Of a stretch of 28,729 bases of DNA, positions 3,779 to 27,932 are shown in pieces (within the stretch, counting starts at the first letter, position 1; every line of letters begins with the position of its first letter). The position numbers and the translations under genes are program-made. Source of the stretch: a virus; the IMG/VR virus record IMGVR_UViG_3300043449_000662, positions 1 to 28,729 of that record, one strand, 5' to 3'. The notes under the pieces are model-generated. The model had not been told where the DNA came from. It worked only from the letters and a program-made list of their open reading frames with translations, and did not search any database.

Positions 3779-4152
3779 GTTTCGATCTGAACGTGAGGGC
3801 CATCGACGATGGATTTCCATTCGACGCCGTAGGTGATCGCCTTCGTCAGCCCCAGCTCTTTGGCCGCAGCTTTGAACGCCTTGTTGACGATGGTCTGGTA
3901 GTCAGCAAGCTTCCATGACACCTCACCGCCAGGCTTAGCGACGAAATCAATCGCCTTGCCGCGAAGGTGATAGCTGTTCATCGTGCGGCTCTTGCCGGTT
4001 TTCACCAGATACGCCTGGCGCTCTTTTGTGCGCAGTCCTTCGGTAATCTCAAACGGGATCGGGCTGATTTCGCGGGCGCGCTTCACCAGCTGCACGAGCG
4101 TAGGATCGACCCCCCGCATGCGCACGAGGCTTGTTGCATTCAGTTTCGTCAT
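3775..4152 (-). CDS. Endolysin, M15-type peptidase (L-alanyl-D-glutamate type)
   Basis: 125 residues. The start is at the ATG at 4152, with GGGAG 5 bases upstream and an overlap with the stop of the small ORF before it; the frame extends to 4227 but without such support. Zinc ligands of the VanY/T5-endolysin type can be read: H62 and D69 in YHLRGKAIDF, and H120 in DGPHVQIE. EGLRTKERQ at about 38-46 matches the substrate-side loop seen in the family. It would cut the peptide stem of peptidoglycan. No signal peptide, so it depends on a holin. Confidence 0.85.
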   Translation of the reverse strand: MTKLNATSLVRMRGVDPTLVQLVKRAREISPIPFEITEGLRTKERQAYLVKTGKSRTMNSYHLRGKAIDFVAKPGGEVSWKLADYQTIVNKAFKAAAKELGLTKAITYGVEWKSIVDGPHVQIET

Positions 4153-4262
4153 TGCAGCTCCCAATGCACAAGCCGCCCAATGTCGAAGAGCAGGCGGCAA
4201 AGAAAAAGGGCTGCACCGATCAGGCACAGCCCTTTGATGAATTGGATCTCGTCGTCCGGCAT
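4149..4262 (-). CDS. 37-aa single-span membrane protein
   Basis: A short ORF that exactly fills the gap between the ejection protein and the endolysin. Its ATG shares a base with the stop before it (TAATG), and its TGA overlaps the endolysin ATG (ATGA). It begins MPDDEIQFIKGLCL, continues into a hydrophobic helix (LIGAALFLCRLLFDIGRLV) and ends HWELQ. Double coupling argues that it is translated. A role in lysis is suggested by position only. Confidence 0.6.
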   Translation of the reverse strand: MPDDEIQFIKGLCLIGAALFLCRLLFDIGRLVHWELQ

Positions 4263-5962
4263 TACGGCTCGTCGAGGAGACCTCGGACAGCAGCAGCTCC
4301 GGCTATGCCGCCGAACGGTTGCGTCGCACGAGCCGCGCCGCGCTGGATCCTATTCGGAGGAGGCAGAACAGGGTTCCTGGTGCCGCCTGCCCTAACAACG
4401 CGCATCGCCTCGTTGACGTTGCGCCTCGTCAGTCGATCTCCGAGAACTTTTGCGCCATGCGTAACGCCTGTGATTGCGAGCGCGAGTTCAGGATAATCAT
4501 GCAGGATTGAACCCAGAGCGAGAGCCGATACCGGCCCTTTCAACGGTGAATAATTGCCGATCTTTCGCGCCGCGTTCTCTGCCGTATTGCCTCTGACGCC
4601 AACCTCCATTGCCGCGTTTTCGTCAGGCGTATAGGCCTGGGTGCCGTTTTTCTCCCAGACGCTGCGGAGGTTTTGGCGCATGGCGTTGTTGATGTTGCCG
4701 CCGGAATAGGTCGAGCCAGCGCGGTTCTGTGCGCGCCACATTGCGTCGTCCAGCTCGTTAGCCTTGGAGTAGGATCCCCAGTGCCTGTTGCCTTCAGCCA
4801 GGTTCGCCGCCGAGACCGTGCCGTCTCCACCGACAAAATGGTGGTCGGCGGGGTTGGTGAGGAGCTTGTCGAACTCATCCATCAGCATTGAGCCAAAGCG
4901 CGCCTCGTTGTCGTCGTCGGCGCGGCGGATATTCTGGATCATGCTCCTGACGTTTTGGATCTGTGTCGGCGTCGGCATACCGAGACCCATCGCCTGCATC
5001 TGCTTGAGCTTGTCCAGCTCTCGCATCACGCCGATCGGTTTTGATGTGATGGACGATGACCAGCCCTGAGACTGCAGCTTTTTCATCAGGGCGTCGCGCA
5101 TGTCGCCGACAAAGGCTGGCGTGTATCGACCGCCGGAGTTCTCAAACCGATCGTAAAAGGCCTGCGCCGTATCCTTCAGGCTCTGCGTCGATGGCGAGCG
5201 AGCGACCCGCTCTGCAGCATTTGTCAGAGCAGCGGCGTTTCTGACGCCGGCGCCGAGGGCATGACCGGCTGCGCCGCCGGCTGTGCCGACCAGGGAGCCT
5301 TTCAGCATCTGATCCGGCATCTCGGCGATCGTGTCAGCGTCGCCTGCAGCCTGGACGGCGCCAGTGACAGCGCCCGCGCCCATGCTATTTTTCAGCGCCT
5401 CATAATTGGCTCTGGAAGCCGCAGGAGCGACCGCAGCTCTAGGGGCGACAGATCCAGCGACAGCCGGCAAAGACGCGCCAGCGCCTTCCGTAGCCACAGG
5501 CAGCGACGCCCCAGCTCTGGTGAGCAGCGGGACACCCGCCTCAACCGCTTTTTTGCCGGCCATGAGACCGCGCAGGCCGGTGAATACCTCGCCGCCGGCG
5601 ATCGACGCGGGGATGGATCCGACGACCTCGGCGCCAGTGCCATACCAGCCGGTCGATTTATCTGCGGCATCCAGTGCGCGCCGCTCATAGTCGCGCGCGT
5701 TGGTGTATCGCTCGCCGAACGTGTTGCCGACTGCGCCGCGACCGCCAAAGATCCCTTTCAGTGCAGCTGACGCCTCATCGCCAAAGCCGAGCGCAGCGCC
5801 CTGCTTGAACTTGCGCATCATGCCGGAGGTGAAATCAGTCGGCGGCTCTGCCGAGCTGTGCAGCTTGTTAAATGCCGCCTCGATCGTCGCCCATTCCGGG
5901 GTTCCCTGCTTGTCGGCATTATTGACGAGCCAGCCCGCAAGCTCCTTGAGATCTTCAGACAT
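4262..5962 (-). CDS. Putative DNA-ejection (internal virion) protein
   Basis: 566 residues. The N-terminal 60 residues are helical; a Gly/Ala-rich amphipathic middle follows (for example GAALGFGDEASAALKGIFGG and Ala/Gly/Val stretches to about 260), typical of membrane-active ejection proteins. The C-terminal half is helical and charged. It is the third of three long proteins between the tail hub and the lysis genes, where P22-like phages carry gp7, gp20 and gp16. These enter the cell ahead of the DNA. I assign it by composition and order; there is no enzymatic motif. Confidence 0.6.
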   Translation of the reverse strand: MSEDLKELAGWLVNNADKQGTPEWATIEAAFNKLHSSAEPPTDFTSGMMRKFKQGAALGFGDEASAALKGIFGGRGAVGNTFGERYTNARDYERRALDAADKSTGWYGTGAEVVGSIPASIAGGEVFTGLRGLMAGKKAVEAGVPLLTRAGASLPVATEGAGASLPAVAGSVAPRAAVAPAASRANYEALKNSMGAGAVTGAVQAAGDADTIAEMPDQMLKGSLVGTAGGAAGHALGAGVRNAAALTNAAERVARSPSTQSLKDTAQAFYDRFENSGGRYTPAFVGDMRDALMKKLQSQGWSSSITSKPIGVMRELDKLKQMQAMGLGMPTPTQIQNVRSMIQNIRRADDDNEARFGSMLMDEFDKLLTNPADHHFVGGDGTVSAANLAEGNRHWGSYSKANELDDAMWRAQNRAGSTYSGGNINNAMRQNLRSVWEKNGTQAYTPDENAAMEVGVRGNTAENAARKIGNYSPLKGPVSALALGSILHDYPELALAITGVTHGAKVLGDRLTRRNVNEAMRVVRAGGTRNPVLPPPNRIQRGAARATQPFGGIAGAAAVRGLLDEP

Positions 5963-11984: not shown

Positions 11985-12779
11985 TCACGTCCAAGAAATG
12001 TAGATGTAGCCGGAGCTGCCTGGATCACCATTTCCGGCAATGCCATAATTCGGAATGATGCCGCCTTGGCCGCCATTTCCAGCTGAGCCGATCTGGATCG
12101 GTATTGAGGCGCCGTAATAATTTTTGATGCTGCTCCAACCCATGACATCAATGTCAAAGATCAGGCCGTAGTTCTTGCCACCCTTGCCGCCTCTGCCGCC
12201 GTTGCTGCCAGCAAAATAATATGGGAAATAACTAACAGACTGGCTGCCATATCCTGTGCCACCAGATCCGCCAGTCCTTACGCCTGTATCATCTGGGTAT
12301 GTCGCCGCGTTCGATCCAGTGTTGCCGGCATTATTGACACCACCGCCTCCACCGCCACCACCGCCATTTGCCGTCAGCGCAAATGATTGCCCGACACCGA
12401 ATATCGTTTGTCCCCCTGCGCCACCGCTGGATCCATCATCATGCGATGTCGTGTTTTTGAACTCACATCCTCCACCACCACCGCCACTGCCACCGTAAAC
12501 GGTGACATAGAGCTTATTGAACAACGCAGGCAGAGTTATTGATGAGCCAGATGTATATGTGTTGTTTCCAGCAACGACTGGGCTTCCTGCCTGCGTCGAA
12601 TAGAAATCTGTGAAAGCGATCGCATTAGGACTAGCCGGGAAATACCCGGTGCTGTTGTCTGGACGGTAGAACAACGTGCCGCGATAAGCGTTCAGATTAT
12701 TCCCGCGCCCGCTAAAGCCGCTTGAGCCGTTAATATCCAACATGCTCAACGGTGGCCGGTTGCCGCCATTAGGTAGCAT
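11985..12779 (-). CDS. Glycine-rich tail adhesin
   Basis: 264 residues, start overlapping the stop of the S74 fibre (TGATG). The N-terminal 90 residues include a beta part (SSITLPALFNKLYVTVYGGS). The remainder consists of polyglycine runs separated by short variable loops and ends SGYIYISWT. Glycine-rich proteins of this design cap fibre tips and bind receptors in T-even phages (gp38), and similar ones follow fibre genes in other phages. Receptor binding is inferred from composition and position. Base composition is lower in GC than the surrounding genes, in keeping with exchange of host-range genes. Confidence 0.6.
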   Translation of the reverse strand: MLPNGGNRPPLSMLDINGSSGFSGRGNNLNAYRGTLFYRPDNSTGYFPASPNAIAFTDFYSTQAGSPVVAGNNTYTSGSSITLPALFNKLYVTVYGGSGGGGGGCEFKNTTSHDDGSSGGAGGQTIFGVGQSFALTANGGGGGGGGGVNNAGNTGSNAATYPDDTGVRTGGSGGTGYGSQSVSYFPYYFAGSNGGRGGKGGKNYGLIFDIDVMGWSSIKNYYGASIPIQIGSAGNGGQGGIIPNYGIAGNGDPGSSGYIYISWT

Positions 12780-14209
12780 CAGCGCGCCTCCACAGCAGCT
12801 AGGCGAGCATCGATATTTTTCAGAGCCTCAATCAGGACGCCGGAGATATTGCCGTATGCTACCGACAGGGTGCCGTCATTGGTATGCACAACCTGTGGCA
12901 GAACCTCCTGCATCTCCTGGGCGATCACGCCGACGCCGGCCTTGTCGTCCTCAATGCGATCGTAGAACACACCGCGCATCCGGCGAACCAACGACATCGG
13001 ATCTTGGATCGTCTCAACATTCTTTTTGAGCTTGGCGTCGGAGTAAGCGGTGACGTTGCCAGCGGCTGTGAAATTGCCGGAGGTGTCCCAGTAAGCCAAG
13101 TTAGAGCCGCTGCTATTCTTCCAGCCAGCCGCCGAGGCGTTGCCGTAGAAATATCCGCCAGAGCTGCCGACAGTGATCGTGCGCTCGCTGGAGCCGCTGA
13201 CGATCGACAGGTTGCCCGTCATTGACGTGGTGCCGGAGACTGACAGGTTGCTGGACAGCGTGGCCGCGCCGCTGACGGCGAGCGTTGATGTAAGGGACGT
13301 CGCACCAGATGCACTGAGCGTCGTTAATGAAGCCGCGCCGGAGATCGTGCCTGACACCGACAGGCTACCCGACATGCTCACGTTGCCGCCTGAAACGACA
13401 AGTTGAGTTGAGCCGACTGTTAAGCCATTAGAGGCCAGCGTCGTCGCGCCGATCACATTGAGGGTGCTGGAGAGCGTTGTAGCCCCGGAGACGCCAAGAG
13501 TGCTGGAGAGCGTCGTGGCCCCGGTGACAGCGAGCGTGCTGGCTAGCGTCGCCGCACCGCCCGCATACAGGGTGCCTGCTCCCGCGCTTAACCCGGCAGC
13601 TGTTATTGAGCCAGTTGCTGTGACGTTCCCGCCCGTAACCTGGAGCTGCCCAGAGCCGACGTTGAGGCCGTTGGCGGCGAGAGTGGTTGCGCCGGCAACC
13701 GACAGCGTTCCAGAGAGGGCTGCATTGCCGGTGAGAGCGGTTGTGCCAGAGACTGCGAGATTGCCCGTCGTGCTGACATTGCCGCCGGAGCAGTTTAGCT
13801 GCCCCGCTCCGACGTTGAGGCCGTTATAGGCAAGAGCTGTTGCACCAGTGACAGATAACGAGCCGCCAAGGATCGTTGCACCGGAGCCGCTTAGCGTGAA
13901 GCCGCCCTGGAAGGTGACGTTAGAGCTGACGGTGAGCGTCGTGGAGAGCAGCGTCGCGCCGGACACCGTCAGGCCACCCGAGGCCGTGACATTGCCGCCC
14001 GTCACGCGCAGCTGGCCGGAGCCGACGTTTAAGCCATTCGACGGGAGGTTGATCGCGCCCGCCAGCGTTTGAGCGCTCGTCAGGATGCGCGACACCATGT
14101 TGGCGTCAATCGTGTCCAGATCGGCGTTGAGATGCGCGCCCCAGGCATTCGTGTCCGAGCCGATCTCCGGCTTCGTCAAATTGTATGTCGGGGTAAACGT
14201 ATTAGCCAT
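12779..14209 (-). CDS. Tail fibre with self-cleaving S74 chaperone domain
   Basis: 476 residues. The N-terminus (NLTKPEIGSDTNAWG, HLNADLDTIDANM) is a common phage fibre start. The shaft (50-330) consists of Gly/Ser/Thr beta repeats: the unit NGLNVGSGQL.VTGGNV appears at about 58, 129, 180 and 261, separated by GATTLSSTL-type units. The C-terminal 87 residues are a Peptidase_S74 intramolecular chaperone: the Ser/Lys pair in SDAKLKKNV (Ser390) and GVGVIAQEMQEVLP. In this family the chaperone drives trimer folding and then cuts itself off before the Ser. So the mature fibre would end at about residue 389. Confidence 0.85.
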   Translation of the reverse strand: MANTFTPTYNLTKPEIGSDTNAWGAHLNADLDTIDANMVSRILTSAQTLAGAINLPSNGLNVGSGQLRVTGGNVTASGGLTVSGATLLSTTLTVSSNVTFQGGFTLSGSGATILGGSLSVTGATALAYNGLNVGAGQLNCSGGNVSTTGNLAVSGTTALTGNAALSGTLSVAGATTLAANGLNVGSGQLQVTGGNVTATGSITAAGLSAGAGTLYAGGAATLASTLAVTGATTLSSTLGVSGATTLSSTLNVIGATTLASNGLTVGSTQLVVSGGNVSMSGSLSVSGTISGAASLTTLSASGATSLTSTLAVSGAATLSSNLSVSGTTSMTGNLSIVSGSSERTITVGSSGGYFYGNASAAGWKNSSGSNLAYWDTSGNFTAAGNVTAYSDAKLKKNVETIQDPMSLVRRMRGVFYDRIEDDKAGVGVIAQEMQEVLPQVVHTNDGTLSVAYGNISGVLIEALKNIDARLAAVEAR

Positions 14210-14211
14210 GT

Positions 14212-15246
14212 TTAAGCCGCCTGCTGTTGCGGTGTGAATGACGATTGAATAGGCGTCCAGACTGCGCTGCCTGGCGTCTCAGTCGGGGTATCCGCGACGC
14301 CATCCGAGATCGCGATGCCGCCGATCGGCGCACCACCAAGCGCGCCCGTCGGGCGAACATTCGCCTGCGGCTGCAGCGGAGTGATCTTGTCCCAGTAAGC
14401 CACGCTAGATGCCGGTTGCGTCCAGAGAGCGCCAATAGCGCCGCCAGAGGGTGGCGATGCAGTTGCAGCTATCGGAGCGCCGCCAATAGCCGAGCAGCCA
14501 AGAGCGCCGCCGATCTGCGTGACGTTGCTCGGCGGGAGAGCCGGGTTGACGCCCTGCCAGAAGGCCTCGCCATTAGCCTGCGGCGTCCATACAGACGGCC
14601 CAGAGGGAATAACCGCCCACTGAACCACAATGCCGCCAGACGCGCTGTCAGGAGCTTCTGAGGCATTCAGGACGACGTCAGCGACAACGGATGAGTTAAA
14701 TGCCGCCGTGTCTGGCGCTTCAACCAGAGCAAACGAGCAGGCGTCGAATACCTGGCCCGCAAAGGAGGCAATGTCCTGCGCCTCTGTCGCCGCCAGATTA
14801 GCCAGCGTTACCGCAGAGGCAGAACCTGACGCAGTATCCTGCGCCTCGGTGACAGCAAGATCGGCAGACGCGACAATGGCTGTCGTGATCGATGCGGTAT
14901 CAGACGCCTCAGTTGCGGCGAGATCCGCATAGGCCGGATCTATCTGAGCCGAGCCAGAGGCCGTGTCCTGCGCCTCTGTCGCCAGTAGGTTGGCGAGCGT
15001 GACAGCGGAAACGGATCCAGACGCGGTGTCAGCCGCCTCAATGGCTGCAAGATCAGCAGTGGCGGTAATTGATAGGCTGGCGGAAGCGGTGTCATAGGCT
15101 TCCGTTACAGCGAGGCTCGCCGACGCGACGATGTTAACCGTAGCGGCGGCGGTGTCTTGAGCTTCAGATACAGATAGTCCAGCAACCCGGACTACAAACC
15201 CCGCCGTCGATACTGCTGCTGACGCAAGCGGGGCAAAACCGAGCAT
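14212..15246 (-). CDS. Repeat protein with nine 21-residue EAxDTAS units
   Basis: 344 residues. Residues 26-204 are nine tandem units of about 21 residues with the core TEAxDTAS; the Glu lies at 28, 49, 70, 91, 113, 134, 155, 176 and 197. Each unit ends in a beta-like Val/Ala stretch. A second repeat follows at 219-340: a WTP/WTQ start at 220, 275 and 330 (55 residues apart) with GALG..IGG. No enzyme motif. It lies among fibre genes, so it is probably a fibre shaft or a virion-surface protein. I do not recognise a named family. Confidence 0.65.
   Translation of the reverse strand: MLGFAPLASAAVSTAGFVVRVAGLSVSEAQDTAAATVNIVASASLAVTEAYDTASASLSITATADLAAIEAADTASGSVSAVTLANLLATEAQDTASGSAQIDPAYADLAATEASDTASITTAIVASADLAVTEAQDTASGSASAVTLANLAATEAQDIASFAGQVFDACSFALVEAPDTAAFNSSVVADVVLNASEAPDSASGGIVVQWAVIPSGPSVWTPQANGEAFWQGVNPALPPSNVTQIGGALGCSAIGGAPIAATASPPSGGAIGALWTQPASSVAYWDKITPLQPQANVRPTGALGGAPIGGIAISDGVADTPTETPGSAVWTPIQSSFTPQQQAA
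14635..15171 (-). repeat. Nine-fold 63-base coding repeat
   Basis: DNA encoding the EAxDTAS units of the 344-aa protein. Eight spacings of 21, 21, 21, 22, 21, 21, 21 and 21 codons. Units 3 and 6 share the tail AVTLANL, so some copies are recent duplicates while others have drifted. Confidence 0.75.
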
Positions 15247-15412: not shown

Positions 15413-15739
15413 TTACTCACTCCAAGGTAATACCGGAGAAGCTTCCGGCGGTGTGATCTGATTTGCGATTTGCTGATCCAGATAGCTCTCGATCTCGGCG
15501 ATCTTGCCCTGCCCCATTGACGACTGAACCCAGGACAGAACCTGATCCTTCGTCAGCTGGTTGTAGGGCGTAAAATCGCCTTCTGGATCAAGCTCAACCA
15601 TCTGTGAGCCAGCGACAGTCGCCTCATGCTCGCCGTCTGTCGCAGTAACGCGCCAATAGACGACGAACACGACGTCGTTGAAGCCGTCTTTTTCCGGGTA
15701 TGCGTCAAGACGCTCCGGCGTCCATTCGTATGTGTTCAT
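15413..15739 (-). CDS. Tandem paralogue B, small phage structural protein
   Basis: 108 residues from the ATG at 15739, which shares one base with the stop of paralogue A (TGATG); the frame extends four codons further up. It aligns end to end with its neighbour: NTYEW against NTYSW, DVVF.V.WR, ATDG, GSQ.V.LDP, Y..LT, SW and LPW. Domain: a beta part (1-70) and a C-terminal helix. This type of protein is widespread in fibre regions of phages and has no known function. The pair looks like a tandem gene duplication. Confidence 0.7.
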   Translation of the reverse strand: MNTYEWTPERLDAYPEKDGFNDVVFVVYWRVTATDGEHEATVAGSQMVELDPEGDFTPYNQLTKDQVLSWVQSSMGQGKIAEIESYLDQQIANQITPPEASPVLPWSE

Positions 15740-16071
15740 CACGCCACCCAAGGAAGCGGAGGCCGGATAACCGGCGGGTTGATTTGATCCTCAATTTGTT
15801 TGTCGAGTGCAGCCTTCTGTGCTTCGAGCGTCTCAGCGCCCATAGCATCCTCAAGCCACCCAATGACGATAGCTTCCGTTAGTTCCGCGTAGGGAATGTA
15901 GGTTGCAGACGGATCAAGGGTGACTGCCTGCGAACCGTATATATCTGCGTTGTGGCCGTTGCCGTCAGTCGCCTGACGCCGCCAATGGACGGTGAACACA
16001 ACGTCAGTCTTGTTGTCTTGCGTAGGATAGCAGTCGAGTTGGGAGATTAGCCATGAATATGTATTGCTCAT
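15739..16071 (-). CDS. Tandem paralogue A, small phage structural protein
   Basis: 110 residues, starting in an ATG that overlaps the S74 fibre stop region. It is the sister of the next gene: both have NTY.W, DVVF.V.WR..ATDG, GSQ.V.LDP and end LPW. It carries a C-terminal helix (EAQKAALDKQIEDQI). It may be a fibre-associated or assembly protein; the sequence does not say which. Confidence 0.7.
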   Translation of the reverse strand: MSNTYSWLISQLDCYPTQDNKTDVVFTVHWRRQATDGNGHNADIYGSQAVTLDPSATYIPYAELTEAIVIGWLEDAMGAETLEAQKAALDKQIEDQINPPVIRPPLPWVA

Positions 16072-17900
16072 TGTTTAGCCTCTAGTGCGGATACTTTGGC
16101 GGCGAGTTCTTGGATTGCTTTTAACATCATCATCGGGAGAACAGAGTATTTGACAGCCTTAGTCGGCTTTTTTCCTTCTTCGGCTTTATCATCGCATACA
16201 AGCCCAGGAAATACTTGTTCCGCTTCCTGTGCAATCAAACCAAGCCAGTCATTAACATCACCGTCATCCTGATAATTCCAAAGGTATTTGACGACGCGAA
16301 GTTTGCACAGATCATCGAGATAGCCGCGCGCATCCCGTATGTTTTTCTTCAGTGTTACGTCAGATGAGAAAGTAGAAGCGCCATCGGCACGCAACGCATA
16401 CGATGTTCCGCCGCCGTTTGTGGCATACATGAAATAATAAGCAGATGTCGTTGCGGAGGCATTATTCAGGTTGCAACCTATTGTTGATGATCCAGCACCA
16501 CCAGAGGTATTCCTAAAATATGCGCTATATCCATTCGACGCGCTATTAAGAACAGTAAGCCCATTCGGTGAGGCATAAGCTGTCGTCGTCCCAACCAGCA
16601 GGTTCCCGCTGCCATCTAGCATCAATTTATTGTTGCCAGCGTAGTCATTAAATGCAGCAATATAACCACCACCAGATGCACCACCAGCAACGCGCAATCC
16701 GTAACCAGTTGCTGACGAATTGTTGAAGTTAACAATAACGTCGCCCGCGACAGATGTATCGGCTTGGATTTTTCCGGCAAGCGACAAAAGTGCAGAGCCG
16801 AGAACACTTGTTGTGCCCAAAGATAACTGGCCGCTGGCGTTTAGCGTCATCGCCTGCGTGAAGCTGATGGGATTGCCTGCGGTGCCGTAGGCAGCTGTGA
16901 ACCAGCGATGACTACCTTGATACTGTTGATATTGAGATGCGTAATCAGTATTTATATATTTAAGGCTTGTTCCGTCATAGTAGGTATTGCAATACACTCT
17001 GGCTGTCGAATTTGCGTCACTAACTAAGGCAGCCGCTGGACCAACCTGAAGCGCTCTAAAGGTCGACGTCCAAGCACTCGGCGTAACACCCAGTCCTAAA
17101 TTTCCTGCGGCGTCGAGCCTAAATTTTTCAGAGCCGTTTGTTACAAAGCAGATTGGAGATGAATAGTTGCTATACAGAAACGCGGCGTATGCGGGCAGTC
17201 CATAATCAGTTCCGGCTGAATTTTCCGTTCCAAAATAGAAGCTGCCAGAATTGTTTATCATCCTGACAGCATTAGAACTTGTCGCTGTGCTGTTCTGACA
17301 GATTAACGCTGTGCCGCTTGAGGATTTTATGGTTCCAGCGACTTCCAATGCTTGTCCCGGCGACGAAGTGCCAATTCCAAGCCGCTTATTCGTATTATCC
17401 CAGAACAGATTGCTGTCTGAGCTATACGTTGACGATCCGCCAAACGGAATGCGGCCTGCGTCAAGCGAGCCAATGCCCGTGCCGCCGTTCGCAACCGGGA
17501 GCGTGCCGGTGACGCCGGTAGCAAGAGGCAGGCCCGTTGCATTGGTGAGCGTGGCGCTGCTAGGCGTTCCAAGCGCGCCGCCAGATACGACAATGTCAGC
17601 CGCCAAGGCCGTGATATAAACCTGGGCGTTCGTCGTGACGCTGATCGCCGACGTGCCGTAGGTGGTGCCGTTGAAAGACTGTGTAACCGTGCGCGAGAGC
17701 GTGCCAGCAACCGAGTTAAACGTGCCGGTGCCGATCTCCCAGTTGACGCCGTCCTCAATCGTATAGCTGACGGTGTCGCTGTTCTGCGCGCCAGCAGACG
17801 AGAACGTCTGGTAGCCGGCGACAGCAACGCCAAGAGACAAAGCGCCGGTGCCGGTTGACGTCACCGTCATCCGCGCGCGGTTATACATCTTTGAAGGCAT
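16068..17900 (-). CDS. Tail fibre with self-cleaving S74 chaperone domain
   Basis: 610 residues. The N-terminal 150 residues are a beta-rich attachment part (YNRARMTVTSTGTGALSLG, then VTTNAQVYITALAAD and LPVANGGTGIGSL). The body has repeated fibre motifs such as FWDNTNKRLGIGTSSP, FRLDAAGNLGLG, LNASGQLSLGTTS and LMLDGSGNLLVGTT. The C-terminal 98 residues are a Peptidase_S74 domain: SDVTLKKNI (Ser513, Lys) and LGLIAQEAEQVFP, with a final trimeric coiled coil. Cleavage is expected just before Ser513. Base composition falls from GC-rich at the N-terminus to more AT-rich in the body, which suggests a swapped distal part. It probably forms the main host-recognition fibre. Confidence 0.85.
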   Translation of the reverse strand: MPSKMYNRARMTVTSTGTGALSLGVAVAGYQTFSSAGAQNSDTVSYTIEDGVNWEIGTGTFNSVAGTLSRTVTQSFNGTTYGTSAISVTTNAQVYITALAADIVVSGGALGTPSSATLTNATGLPLATGVTGTLPVANGGTGIGSLDAGRIPFGGSSTYSSDSNLFWDNTNKRLGIGTSSPGQALEVAGTIKSSSGTALICQNSTATSSNAVRMINNSGSFYFGTENSAGTDYGLPAYAAFLYSNYSSPICFVTNGSEKFRLDAAGNLGLGVTPSAWTSTFRALQVGPAAALVSDANSTARVYCNTYYDGTSLKYINTDYASQYQQYQGSHRWFTAAYGTAGNPISFTQAMTLNASGQLSLGTTSVLGSALLSLAGKIQADTSVAGDVIVNFNNSSATGYGLRVAGGASGGGYIAAFNDYAGNNKLMLDGSGNLLVGTTTAYASPNGLTVLNSASNGYSAYFRNTSGGAGSSTIGCNLNNASATTSAYYFMYATNGGGTSYALRADGASTFSSDVTLKKNIRDARGYLDDLCKLRVVKYLWNYQDDGDVNDWLGLIAQEAEQVFPGLVCDDKAEEGKKPTKAVKYSVLPMMMLKAIQELAAKVSALEAKQ

Positions 17901-19677: not shown

Positions 19678-21593
19678 TTACGAAGTCGCCTGATTGGCTA
19701 TCACGGCATGCGCGTAAGGAGAGTTCACAACCAGCGTGTATTCGACGATGAGCTGCGATTTCTTCGCGTCGCCCGTGCGAGCCAGTTCGTTACGCTGGAA
19801 CGGACGGAGATACGCAACCTTCGCGTAGTCGGGATCGACAAGGTAGCCAAACGCCTCATTGACAAAGAGATCAGGCACGAACGCCAGATCACCGAAGTCG
19901 CTGAGATACAAATCAGCCGCGCCGACGATCACGCCCTGCTGGCCGTTGTTGCCGGTATTGCCACGGCTGTCATGCAGCGCGGTATTAATGCGCGTGGCAT
20001 TCAGGCCAGCAAACGCGCCATACAGCGGCTTGTTGACAGGGCCAACCAGCAGCATCTTCGGCTCGCCACCGTTGCTGTAGAGAGTCTTAATGGCGTTCTT
20101 CAGGTTGGTTTCCGAAGGAGCCGCAGCGCCAGACGTCAGCGTCCAACCAGTCGTCGGAACGCCGGCATAAGACGAAGCGCCACCCGAGAACACCGGGCCA
20201 GTGACAGTGCCGATGCCGATGCCGTTACCAGCCGGCGTTTGAGCCGTCGAACGGATCCACGCCGGAAGGCCAGCCAGTTTGCGAGCCGTCGAGCTGTTGC
20301 CCGCAACCGCGCCCTGGTTCGACAGGAGGATCTTCTCCATGTCGCGCTTGAGTTCCTTACCATGCTTAGCGATGGTATAGGCCTCAATCGTTTTCATACC
20401 AGCCGCATCGACTGCGCCGGACGTGCCGGACACAAGCAAGGTTTTCTGGCTGATCTGTGTATAGTTACCATTACGCGTAGGAGCGGCAAAGTTCGTCGTG
20501 GAGCTATCCGCGTCCGCGCCTTCAACCGCCGCGTTGCTGCCATCAGCGGCATACAGAACGTCAGTCTGCCCAGAATGTTACTTTCGGCCCGTTCTATGGC
20601 CTACATACCGCTTCACAGCGGCGGGAGCCTACTTCACTTCGGCTCCTCTTACGGTTTCCCGTAAGTTCAGGCTCTATCTTCACCCATTTGGGTGTCTGGC
20701 ATATTAGTCGTTGGGGATAGCCTACGGGGGTGCAGAGCGCGATGCTCATATGCCCCTGCTGAAGCCCATTCATCTACACGTTGCTGTTTACGGCTGATAT
20801 TAAACCGCGCACCGCTGTCTACCCAAGATTGCATCTTAATAGTGAACCGCGTCGGGATTTTGTATCCCGGCTTGCGTGGCTCTTCCTGAGAAACTTTGCC
20901 AACCATGATACCAACACTTCCCAGAATTTTTACAAACTCTGGCACCCAGACGTCGCAGGACTTAAAGCCCATATAGAAACGTCTGTTTGTCGTGTTTCGG
21001 TTCGCAGCGACAAAACCTTCACTATCCATCAAGCCAGAGATAAACCAGAGTTTATCTTGTCGGCTCCAAGTTTTGGCGGCGTCTGGGATTTTTTTCTTCC
21101 CGTCAGTCACCTCAACCAGATGCTTGGCAATCTCAGGATCACCGCATCTGAGCGAATAGTTAGGCTTGCTACTCTTACTTACAGCGTGTTTATGAATTGA
21201 AATTGGCCTGTCGGTAAATTCCGATAAAGCCGCTTTCGTAGCTTCAGCAAAATCTTCGTCAATCGTGTTTAGGCGAAATGTTGGATAGCCTTGATGGGCT
21301 GTCACACACCCATCGCCTAGAAACACACCGAGAAGATATGCGTAACTCTTTCCTGCTGATTGTCCAATCTTCATGACTTTTCCTCTGCGGGGCATGAAGC
21401 TCTAAGGAGTTTCCAGCATATAGCCAGATTTTACATGAGCAAGCAGATATATTTACTCATGGTAGGTATTATCGCACGACGTGCGGCCCACGTTGTTCAT
21501 AAACGGGGTGCGCGTAGGCGAAATGTTATAGATGATGTCCTCGAGATCTTCACGGATCGAGTTCGAGTAGTCGTAACGAGTAACGACGGCCAT
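19678..21593 (-). CDS. Major capsid protein (SU10/DUF5309 type), split by a group I intron
   Basis: Exon 1 is 21593-21455 (139 bases), exon 2 is 20570-19678 (893 bases); joined they give 343 residues plus TAA. AAGGA precedes the ATG. Exon 1 reads MAVVTRYDYSNSIREDLEDI and ends NTYHE plus the T of a Trp codon; exon 2 supplies GG and continues QTDVLYAADG. The spliced stretch NTYHEWQTDVL and the following NYTQISQKTLLVSG and KHGKELKRDMEKILLSNQ fit the DUF5309/SU10 coat family. Without splicing, TAA follows codon 46 and only a 46-residue stub would be made. Upstream lies the scaffold, downstream a strong terminator. An annotation starting at 20439 would miss the first 90 residues. Confidence 0.88.
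20571..21454 (-). ncRNA. Group I self-splicing intron in the coat gene
   Basis: 884 bases on the minus strand. P1: exon CATGAGT pairs with intron GCTCATG, placing the conserved U-G pair at the 5' splice site (after 21455). P3: TCTGGC (21428-21423) with GCCAGA (20700-20695). P4: TGCTG (21418-21414) with CAGCA (21358-21354). P8: CACCC-AAAT-GGGTG (20694-20681). P9: CTTACGG-GAAA-CCGTAAG (20665-20648). An S-like AAGATAGAGCC follows P8; P7 is least certain (AGGCT 20723-20719 with AGCCT 20673-20669 is one option). Extra hairpin GGAGCC/GGCTCC follows P9. The last intron base is G (20571), as required. All pairings were read by eye. Confidence 0.87.
20667..21374 (-). CDS. LAGLIDADG homing endonuclease inside the intron
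   Basis: 235 residues from the ATG at 21374, which has GAGGA 7 bases upstream; an in-frame ATG at 21395 has a poorer site. Two LAGLIDADG helices are visible: YLLGVFLGDG near residue 15 and WFISGLMDSEG near residue 125, so it is a monomeric two-motif enzyme with Asp/Glu at both active sites. It would cut intronless coat alleles and spread the intron. The frame overlaps the ribozyme core: the N-terminal codons cover P4 3' and the C-terminal codons cover P3 3', P8 and the S-like element, and the TGA falls in the proposed P7. The ORF is intact, so the element may still be mobile. Confidence 0.88.
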   Translation of the reverse strand: MKIGQSAGKSYAYLLGVFLGDGCVTAHQGYPTFRLNTIDEDFAEATKAALSEFTDRPISIHKHAVSKSSKPNYSLRCGDPEIAKHLVEVTDGKKKIPDAAKTWSRQDKLWFISGLMDSEGFVAANRNTTNRRFYMGFKSCDVWVPEFVKILGSVGIMVGKVSQEEPRKPGYKIPTRFTIKMQSWVDSGARFNISRKQQRVDEWASAGAYEHRALHPRRLSPTTNMPDTQMGEDRA

Positions 21594-25515: not shown

Positions 25516-26907
25516 CTAGCAAATAGAGACGCGTCGCTGCAGCGGCTTACCGGGTAGCCATTTCAAAGCTCGGCCACCAACCGTGGCCGCTTGGCCGGCA
25601 AAACTAAGGCAAAGTGCATCTGCGAGATCGGGAGAACGCATTCCGCGCTTCTTCAATTCAGACTTGCTCTCAACCTTAATTTTGCCATTGCTTGAAAACG
25701 AGTAAGTCGGGGCGATCAGCTCAGCCCGTAACTCATCATCTTTCGGCAGTCGGACGGCTCGAGTTTCCAGCCAGTCTTTGGCGGCGATCCATAACTCGTC
25801 TCTCAGTCGATACGCCTGCTGATTGAGCGCATTGCTCTCTGAGACGTTGACATCGCGAACATTAAAACCCAATTCGCGCAGACGATCGGCGACACCGCCG
25901 CCAAGGCCAATGCTGTCCACGCAAATCTCAGCGGGCTTGTCCATATTCGCTTCATGGACAATCCGCCCCACCGTTCCCATCAGATCCTCGCCAGACCAAT
26001 GGCGCATCTCGATGACGACGTTACCGCGTCGTTTGCAAATTACCGATCTATCCGATCCGTAACGCGCAATGTCGCAGCCAAAGATGAGATCCGCTTGCGG
26101 GTCGAGCGCAACGTCTCGCGACATAGCGCTGTCCACAAGATCAGCTGCAATAAGGCTATCATCGTCGCGTAGAGCAAACTCACCAAGAACGCGAACACGG
26201 AACGCATTCGAGTTCTCGCCATATGTGCTTTTGATCTGCTCGACGAAGTCTGAACTCACCAACGGAATATCGACGCATGAGACATGCATCGTTTTCCAAT
26301 CGCCCTTGAGCTGGTGGTGCGTTCTAAAAAACAGTCCAGTGTTTCGCGTCGGGTTGCCGATCAGGATCGTCGTCGCGGAGTGGCCCGACATAGATCCAGC
26401 GGCGCTTTCAAACACCGCTTCCGGGATAGCGCTCGCCTCGTCGCAGATGAGCAGAACATGCTCGCTATGAACGCCCGCTAGCGCCTCTGGTCTCTCAGCG
26501 GAACTTGTTCTCGCCGTGATGAACGAGCTTTCCGGCGCGCCCTTCTGGACGATGCGATCGGAGAACACGTCGAGGCTTTCGCGCAACGGCTCCGGCAGCT
26601 TATTCACCCAGTGCTTAACCTCGGCGAACAGCGCGTCATACAGCTGGCCCGCAGTCGGCGCCGTGCAGACGCTCTTTTGCGGGAGCCGCGTAATCATGTG
26701 CCAGATCAGCAGCCAGGCGCAGGCGGTGGATTTCCCGACACCGTGGCCGGCTCTCACCGAGATCCGACGCTCGCCTTTCGCGACATGCATCAGGAACTGT
26801 TCTTGCCAGGGCATAGGCTCGGCGCCCAGGACGTTCCTGACAAATTTGACCGGCTCGTCGCGATACGCCGCGATGAAGATGTCGAGCGCGGCAGCGAGAT
26901 CTGTCAT
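25516..26907 (-). CDS. terL: Terminase large subunit
   Basis: 463 residues, ATGA-coupled to the gene before it. ATPase domain: Walker A GHGVGKS (54-60), Walker B VLLICDEA (Asp156, Glu157), and ILIGNPTRNTG as the coupling motif. Nuclease domain (RNase H fold): Asp279 in FGCDIARYGSDRS, Asp331 in CVDSIGLGG, and an Asp in SPDLADAL near the C-terminus. It drives DNA into the prohead through the portal and cuts the concatemer. All key residues are present. No terminase small subunit is recognised in the window. Confidence 0.93.
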   Translation of the reverse strand: MTDLAAALDIFIAAYRDEPVKFVRNVLGAEPMPWQEQFLMHVAKGERRISVRAGHGVGKSTACAWLLIWHMITRLPQKSVCTAPTAGQLYDALFAEVKHWVNKLPEPLRESLDVFSDRIVQKGAPESSFITARTSSAERPEALAGVHSEHVLLICDEASAIPEAVFESAAGSMSGHSATTILIGNPTRNTGLFFRTHHQLKGDWKTMHVSCVDIPLVSSDFVEQIKSTYGENSNAFRVRVLGEFALRDDDSLIAADLVDSAMSRDVALDPQADLIFGCDIARYGSDRSVICKRRGNVVIEMRHWSGEDLMGTVGRIVHEANMDKPAEICVDSIGLGGGVADRLRELGFNVRDVNVSESNALNQQAYRLRDELWIAAKDWLETRAVRLPKDDELRAELIAPTYSFSSNGKIKVESKSELKKRGMRSPDLADALCLSFAGQAATVGGRALKWLPGKPLQRRVSIC

Positions 26908-27932
26908 TTATTCAAAAGGCCACGAACAATCTGCATGTTCTCGGGGACATCGTAATCCAGCCAAGGATAACGAGCCGCTCTTTGATCAGCGTCCAAGCTC
27001 ATGCGCTTTTGCGTCGTTCTTGCCTCGACCTCGCCCGCAGAGCGTCGGTAGGCTTCATTTGCGGCGTATTCCTGAGCAGCCTTGTCCGCGACAGGGCTGG
27101 GTTTCTTGGTCATCTTTAGATAGACCTGATAATCCCTATCAGGAGCTAGACCCTCATATCCCGCCGCTTTAGAAAATGTTTCATGGTTCAGAGGCGTCGT
27201 CATTGCTTTGACGCGCTCTTTGTAAATTTCCCAGGCCGGCGTTCCCTTCTTCAGGGTTAAATTATTCCCGCCCGGAGCAAACCCCTCACGATTTTGCACA
27301 GCATGCTGCATTTCATGCAATGCAGTCGAAAGCGGGTTATCAGATCTTGAGCCTATCCGAATAAATTCATCTACACCGTGAACGCCATCGATCGGAGGCG
27401 CGTAAGCGCCGCTGGCTACTCCACGCTGCCCGTAATTTACCTCTATGTCTTTCATATTCGGGTAAGCGTCAAACGCTTGATCGTGGCTTACAACCTCTGG
27501 CAGCTTGCCTTCAAAAGCAGCGCCACGTTGAATATATCCCTTTAACGAAGCCCCATTGTCTGGGATTTCAAATCGCCATTTGCCATCGACGCCTTTAAAC
27601 CATCCAGTCGCGTCCCAGATGCTTTCACGGCTCGCGCCCTCGTCAGCCATTTTTTCGGCATGGGCCAGCTTTGCGTGATCAGCAACCTTGGCGCCGCGAC
27701 CAAGAAACATACCCGTTTGCGGGGTCGCTCCCAGCATCGTCTCAAACGCGCCCAGGACATCCCCGCCCTGGTATTGCTTCACAGCGTCGCCAGCCGCCTT
27801 GTAGGGATCCGGGAGGAGCTGGTCGAGAAGGCCATATGTGCGCGCAGGGAAATCATTCGCCTGGACATATTGCGGCTGTTGCGGGTCTTCCTGGTCATCC
27901 AGCAAGCCGCGAACAAAGGCAGATGCGTCCAT
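26904..27932 (-). CDS. Zincin-like protein with a polyvalent-protein type domain
   Basis: 342 residues; GAGGGG lies a few bases before the ATG. Residues 1-110 are helical and phage-like (LLDQLLPDPYKAAGDAVKQY). Residues 110-140 read WFKGVDGKWRFEIPDN. Then comes a metallopeptidase motif: ALHEMQHAVQ with H206, E207 and H210, and, about 90 residues later, YRRSAGEVEAR, whose Glu301 or Glu303 could be the third zinc ligand. HE.QH plus AGEVEAR is typical of the large polyvalent protein associated domains (probably LPD23) of phages. It directly precedes terL. Substrate unknown; it could be a protease injected with DNA or a head-maturation factor. Confidence 0.65.
   Translation of the reverse strand: MDASAFVRGLLDDQEDPQQPQYVQANDFPARTYGLLDQLLPDPYKAAGDAVKQYQGGDVLGAFETMLGATPQTGMFLGRGAKVADHAKLAHAEKMADEGASRESIWDATGWFKGVDGKWRFEIPDNGASLKGYIQRGAAFEGKLPEVVSHDQAFDAYPNMKDIEVNYGQRGVASGAYAPPIDGVHGVDEFIRIGSRSDNPLSTALHEMQHAVQNREGFAPGGNNLTLKKGTPAWEIYKERVKAMTTPLNHETFSKAAGYEGLAPDRDYQVYLKMTKKPSPVADKAAQEYAANEAYRRSAGEVEARTTQKRMSLDADQRAARYPWLDYDVPENMQIVRGLLNK

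Follow-up and report, generated by a model that had tools for sequence, protein, structure and literature searches.

An interrupted major capsid gene

The window that we analysed is the whole of IMG/VR record IMGVR_UViG_3300043449_000662, a stretch of 28,729 bases. On its minus strand it carries a major capsid (coat) gene in two exons. Exon 1 (21455-21593) holds 46 codons and the T of a split Trp codon, exon 2 lies at 19678-20570, and exactly 884 nt (21454-20571) separate the two. The gene is flanked by SU10-type portal, adaptor and terminase genes, and a tyrosine integrase gene lies near the left end of the window. The integrase, together with the SU10-type portal, adaptor and capsid, makes the label of temperate podophage plausible for this virus.

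Read without splicing, the coat frame runs from MAVVTRYDYS to CDNTYHE and meets a TAA one codon later, at the start of the intervening sequence, while its continuation, WQTDVL, resumes 884 nt downstream. Exon 1 ends in ACCATGAGT, with a U at 21455, the insert reads AAATATATC to AACATTCTG, and exon 2 begins with GGCAGACTGACG (GGCAG) at 20570, so the predicted ligated junction is ACCATGAGTGGCAGACTG. Joining the exons gives an open frame of 343 amino acids that matches the SU10_MCP model (PF17236) over positions 9-290 of 292 (E 3.6e-79). Each exon also matches the model alone, exon 1 at positions 8-44 (E 2.9e-7) and exon 2 at positions 89-290 (E 4.1e-50). The first-pass annotation of this DNA had described the split frame, the 884-base gap and the 343-residue product, and every one of these details holds.

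Could the capsid gene be expressed without RNA splicing? An in-frame TTG at 20439, within exon 2, might allow two separately translated proteins, and recoding or an intein might rescue the frame. We give such readings an exceedingly small probability. Starting at the TTG would lose the conserved N-terminal 90 residues. The covarying RNA helices of the insert and the pairing of its P1 with the exon also count against these readings, as do the dozens of relatives that are interrupted at this very codon and the 77 that are cleanly without an insert. An intein was rejected, as there is a stop codon at the start of the insert.

Several other genes in the window deserve mention. Two adjacent DUF7936 paralogues (15413-15751 and 15739-16071, minus strand) adjoin two tail-fibre-like proteins (12779-14209 and 16068-17900), both of which end in an endosialidase chaperone domain. 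A 344-residue protein (14212-15246, minus strand) contains degenerate repeats around EAxDTAS and has no Pfam match, and a protein with an LPD23 large polyvalent-protein domain (26904-27932, minus strand) lies beside the terminase gene.

Anatomy of the intron

The insert (20571-21454, minus strand) has the parts of a group I intron. In P1 the last seven bases of exon 1, CATGAGT (21455-21461), pair with an internal guide sequence, GCTCATG (21434-21440). The resulting helix of 7 bp, CAUGAGU/GCUCAUG, places the U of a U-G pair at the 5′ splice site, an arrangement common to all the tabulated relatives, and it is present in the predicted fold. On inspection of the sequence, exon 2 is able to pair with the bases adjoining the guide, as a P10. 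The 5′ strand of P3 (UCUGGC, 21423-21428) is complementary to GCCAGA at 20695-20700, and that of P4 (UGCUGG, 21413-21418) has its partner at 21354-21359. P7 consists of GACU (20706-20709) and AGCC (20670-20673). The Rfam alignment adds a P8 hairpin, CACCC/GGGUG (20681-20694), and a P9 hairpin, CUUACGG-GAAA-CCGUAAG (20648-20665). The final base of the intron is G. The 7-bp P1 with its U-G pair, the terminal G and helices P3, P4, P8 and P9 had all been named from the sequence at first pass; each is present, as are P6 and P7.

The Rfam model for group I introns, Intron_gpI (RF00028), matches a 1.4-kb stretch with 28.3 bits (E 7e-5) and the whole record with 22.5 bits (E 1.8e-5). At the gathering score of 50 there is no match in the window, and a relaxed threshold and a short stretch were required for the former result. 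The first-pass annotation had proposed this search as a check; its outcome is a significant match that falls below the gathering score. The gathering score is a database cut-off and not a biological feature, and the low score most likely arises because the open reading frame divides the intron core.

Covariation of the ribozyme core

Minimum free energy folding of the 5′ part of the intron alone gives structures no better than those of shuffled sequences (z -0.57), therefore the structural claim rests on covariation. This was assessed in composites of 30 family members from which the open reading frame had been cut out. For helices P3, P4, P6 and P7 together, 96.1% of cells are paired, compared with 83.4% after shuffling, and sliding one partner by 1-3 columns reduces core pairing to only 29-53%. 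Double, compensatory changes occur in 12 of the 18 core pairs, P7 among the helices that show them, and none of 500 shuffles scores as well for the whole core. In P3, five of the six pairs covary and 100% of cells are paired. The family thus has the P3-P4-P6-P7 core of group I introns, with P3 and P7 forming the pseudoknot.

In P7, the pair expected to serve as the guanosine-binding site is G-C in 30 of 30 relatives. The second pair is more varied: A-U in 20, G-U in five and A.C in five, where the window has A.C in place of A-U. The A.C combination is found in two separate clades (the window with L002 and L006, and L011 with L110), and this recurrence, along with the G.U found elsewhere, fits an isosteric wobble. 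The A.C pair could weaken splicing. It might even mark a decayed copy that no longer splices, leaving the capsid gene broken and the phage or prophage defective, and the Rfam score under the gathering cut-off could be read in the same way. We consider such decay very unlikely, because related introns keep the A.C pair, the rest of the core is preserved, both splice-site rules are obeyed, both exons are conserved and in frame, and the endonuclease encoded within the intron is intact and constrained. A functional group I intron remains our preferred reading.

A subset of the family departs from the usual terminal base. Exon 2 is directly preceded by A in L120, L122, L123, L125/L126, L128/L129 and L012, and by C in L127. 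No nearby G yields an in-frame junction in these members, and the guanosine-binding pair of P7 is kept. Judged from their sequences, they may be either natural introns with an end other than G or introns that follow an unrecognised 3′ splice rule.

The endonuclease and the hairpin at its likely start

An open reading frame within the intron (20667-21395, minus strand) encodes a LAGLIDADG homing endonuclease, 242 residues as listed. The true start is likely to be the ATG at 21374, which stands behind AGAGGA and gives a protein of 235 residues. The protein matches LAGLIDADG_3 (PF14528) above the cut-off (E 2.5e-7), its AlphaFold model has a mean pLDDT of 82.8, and Foldseek matches it to PI-SceI, I-Tsp061I, PI-PfuI and I-DmoI with E-values of 1e-9 to 3e-8. 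It shares the LAGLIDADG fold and two acidic motifs with I-DmoI, I-Tsp061I and PI-SceI, yet these are only 14-19% identical to it and come from archaeal introns or an intein rather than a phage capsid gene. The two LAGLIDADG motifs read GVFLGDGC and GLMDSEGF, and the acidic GDG and DSEG are invariant among 13 members. Between the window and L006 its dN/dS is 0.026, a sign of strong purifying selection on the endonuclease.

The likely start codon lies within a hairpin of the P5 region, CUUCAUG/CAUGAAG (21369-21399, minus strand), which has the Shine-Dalgarno-like AGAGGA in its loop and the AUG in its 3′ strand. Among the 30 relatives all seven pairs of the stem have changed on both sides, 91% of cells are paired and the covariation score is 0.97, compared with 0.25 for shuffled alignments; the hairpin folds in most relatives. 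At its other end the endonuclease frame overlaps P7, P3 and P8. With the start codon in the P5-region stem and the frame extending across these three helices, ribozyme folding is expected to compete with translation. We infer that, in this intron family, folding of the ribozyme for splicing and translation of the endonuclease are probably mutually exclusive. There is a precedent in phage T4, where a hairpin limits the translation of I-TevI and loss of the hairpin harms td splicing (PMC2988022). The T4 td, nrdB and nrdD introns, with I-TevI, I-TevII and I-TevIII, resemble ours in their hairpin-limited translation and in frames that overlap core nucleotides, but they encode GIY-YIG and HNH enzymes and lie in genes of nucleotide metabolism (PMC2988022).

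An intron family fixed on one capsid motif

About 40 IMG/VR contigs that carry this intron were located by scans with the endonuclease protein. Remote matches and one free-standing group aside, every member lies in an SU10-type capsid gene. In the three contigs of that group (L136, L137 and L138) a relative of the endonuclease with 46% identity is found without capsid exons, directly upstream of the SU10 adaptor gene, and is apparently a free-standing form. The endonuclease-alignment scan of GTDB species genomes found no prophage copy, and among named phages the endonuclease had a single remote match, with 28% identity across half of the query.

The family occupies two insertion points that are 4 nt apart in the same capsid motif. 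The first, after GAGT in the Trp codon, is used by the window, L002-L006, L010, L012, L013 and L015, and the second, before the Glu codon, by the remaining members. At each site the guide sequence matches its own exon, the guide having changed together with the exon, and P1 ends in U.G in every tabulated member. A repeated origin of the two positions was considered and rejected: the tree needs three changes, but the test does not reject a single clade of first-site members (p 0.275), so we claim only one shift of site.

We also collected 77 relatives whose capsid gene is uninterrupted at the insertion point. These are the best intact capsid relatives ranked by one continuous match, a ranking biased towards uninterrupted genes, and the number is therefore not a frequency. 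The insertion point in these empty alleles is near-invariant DNA, GA[GA]TGGCA.

Lateral movement of the intron is clear. The introns of the window and L006 are 92.7% identical, whereas exon 2 is 70.6% and the upstream DNA 67.6% identical, and synonymous divergence between the two is 0.45 for the endonuclease and 1.13 for the capsid gene. This is what recent homing predicts. A second comparison, L006 with L013, has no such excess (intron 91.7%, exon 2 92.7%). The history of the intron is thus at odds with that of its host gene, and divergent hosts carry it at the same site. The suggestion made at first pass, that the conserved NTYHEW motif would suit a homing target, gains from both the evidence of lateral transfer and the near-invariant site of the 77 empty alleles.

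It is unlikely, in our view, that the endonuclease has given up homing, whether to act as a maturase or to attack co-infecting phages by cutting their capsid genes. Recent lateral transfer argues for homing, as does the invariance of both acidic motifs. Such roles have precedents, since some LAGLIDADG proteins aid splicing, with the bI3 maturase and a bifunctional endonuclease and splicing factor among the Foldseek matches, and an intron endonuclease of PhiPA3 is described as interfering with a co-infecting virus (PMC11620839). Either role would be compatible with homing and does not exclude it.

Further introns in SU10-type capsid genes

The NTYHEW site is not the only one to be occupied. Extra group I introns that lack an open reading frame and score above the Rfam cut-off are found in L006 (4624-4861) and L011 (about 4609-4865), both near position 25 of SU10_MCP, in L122 (about 4403-4680) near position 251, and in L128 (about 3928-4179 and 4669-4943) near positions 85 and 251. 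The capsid gene of L128 therefore hosts three group I introns, the highest count per gene. A further candidate in L105 (about 1926-2888), near position 34, scores 41 bits and is below the cut-off.

A Methylocystaceae MAG contig (L156, RFXM01000059.1) has a capsid 64-82% identical to that of the window and is without the NTYHEW intron; it has two introns without open reading frames (about 4330-4597 and 5047-5296) at positions 116 and 252. These are clearly similar to each other in sequence, which suggests spread within the gene, perhaps by reverse splicing. In Phage C72C1 (L173, OQ984150.1) there is an unannotated group I intron (about 1792-2042) at position 116 with 81.8 bits. Its coat gene was deposited as two CDSs, each named 'major head protein', and the three ORFs annotated between them on the minus strand are spurious.

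With at least six intron sites, the SU10-type capsid gene family looks like a hotspot. A broader proposal would combine three parts: that group I introns have a natural hotspot in SU10-type capsid genes, that in the NTYHEW family folding of the P5-region helix with its start codon gates translation of the endonuclease, and that a terminal A or C may also serve for splicing in one subclade. We put this forward tentatively, at rather less than even odds.

Discussion

The first-pass reading of the insert, in which a group I intron that encodes a LAGLIDADG homing endonuclease splits the major capsid gene, is supported by sequence, covariation, Rfam, fold and intronless relatives alike. We think it very probable that this is a mobile intron, spliced from the capsid transcript and homing by means of its own endonuclease. 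The sequences show its anatomy, the covariation, its membership of a family, lateral transfer and purifying selection; splicing, DNA cleavage and the gating of translation are what we infer. In the late transcript the ribozyme would fold and the end of exon 1, CAUGAGU, would pair with the guide GCUCAUG. Free guanosine would then be used for a cut after the U, and exon 1 would be joined to exon 2 after the terminal G, restoring the NTYHEWQTD motif and the 343-residue coat protein. Alternatively, an unspliced transcript would be translated into the monomeric, two-motif LAGLIDADG endonuclease. The target of this enzyme would be the conserved Glu-Trp codons (GAGTGGCAGAC) in alleles that lack the intron, and repair of the cut allele would copy the intron in. 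Mutual exclusion of folding and translation would delay the endonuclease.

It had been supposed that a capsid gene is an uncommon host. This holds in part: capsid introns are already known from LittleE, Tuc2009 and crAss-like phages, but an intron family at NTYHEW was not found reported. For the major capsid intron of LittleE, splicing was shown by RT-PCR and protein sequencing (PMC3706429), and Tuc2009 has a capsid-gene group I intron as cited in the same paper. LittleE, a temperate phage, is similar to our case in that its major capsid gene holds an intron of about 819 bp, most likely of group I, which has a LAGLIDADG-related frame; it differs in being a siphophage with an HK97-type capsid and in having the ORF on the opposite strand (PMC3706429). 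In Delta crAss-like phages the MCP is named among the typical host genes of group I introns, and the MCP genes of Delta and Zeta phages hold several per gene, with one MCP in five fragments; these are unrelated, larger gut phages, and no site family is described there (PMC7886860). We found nothing in the open-access literature on group I introns in SU10-type capsid genes. The NTYHEW intron is thus of an ordinary kind but represents a new family, for which the comparative evidence is good, and neither this family nor an SU10-type capsid gene family with at least six group I intron sites, up to three per gene, was found reported.

Overlooked introns have consequences for annotation. They explain broken capsid annotations, such as that of Phage C72C1, and because capsid genes are used as phage markers they can result in missed or truncated markers in metagenomes. 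For the phages themselves, no late product is more abundant than the capsid protein, so near-complete splicing would be needed. With an intron family fixed on one codon pair of the capsid gene, it becomes possible to test what splicing costs, when it occurs and how it is gated.
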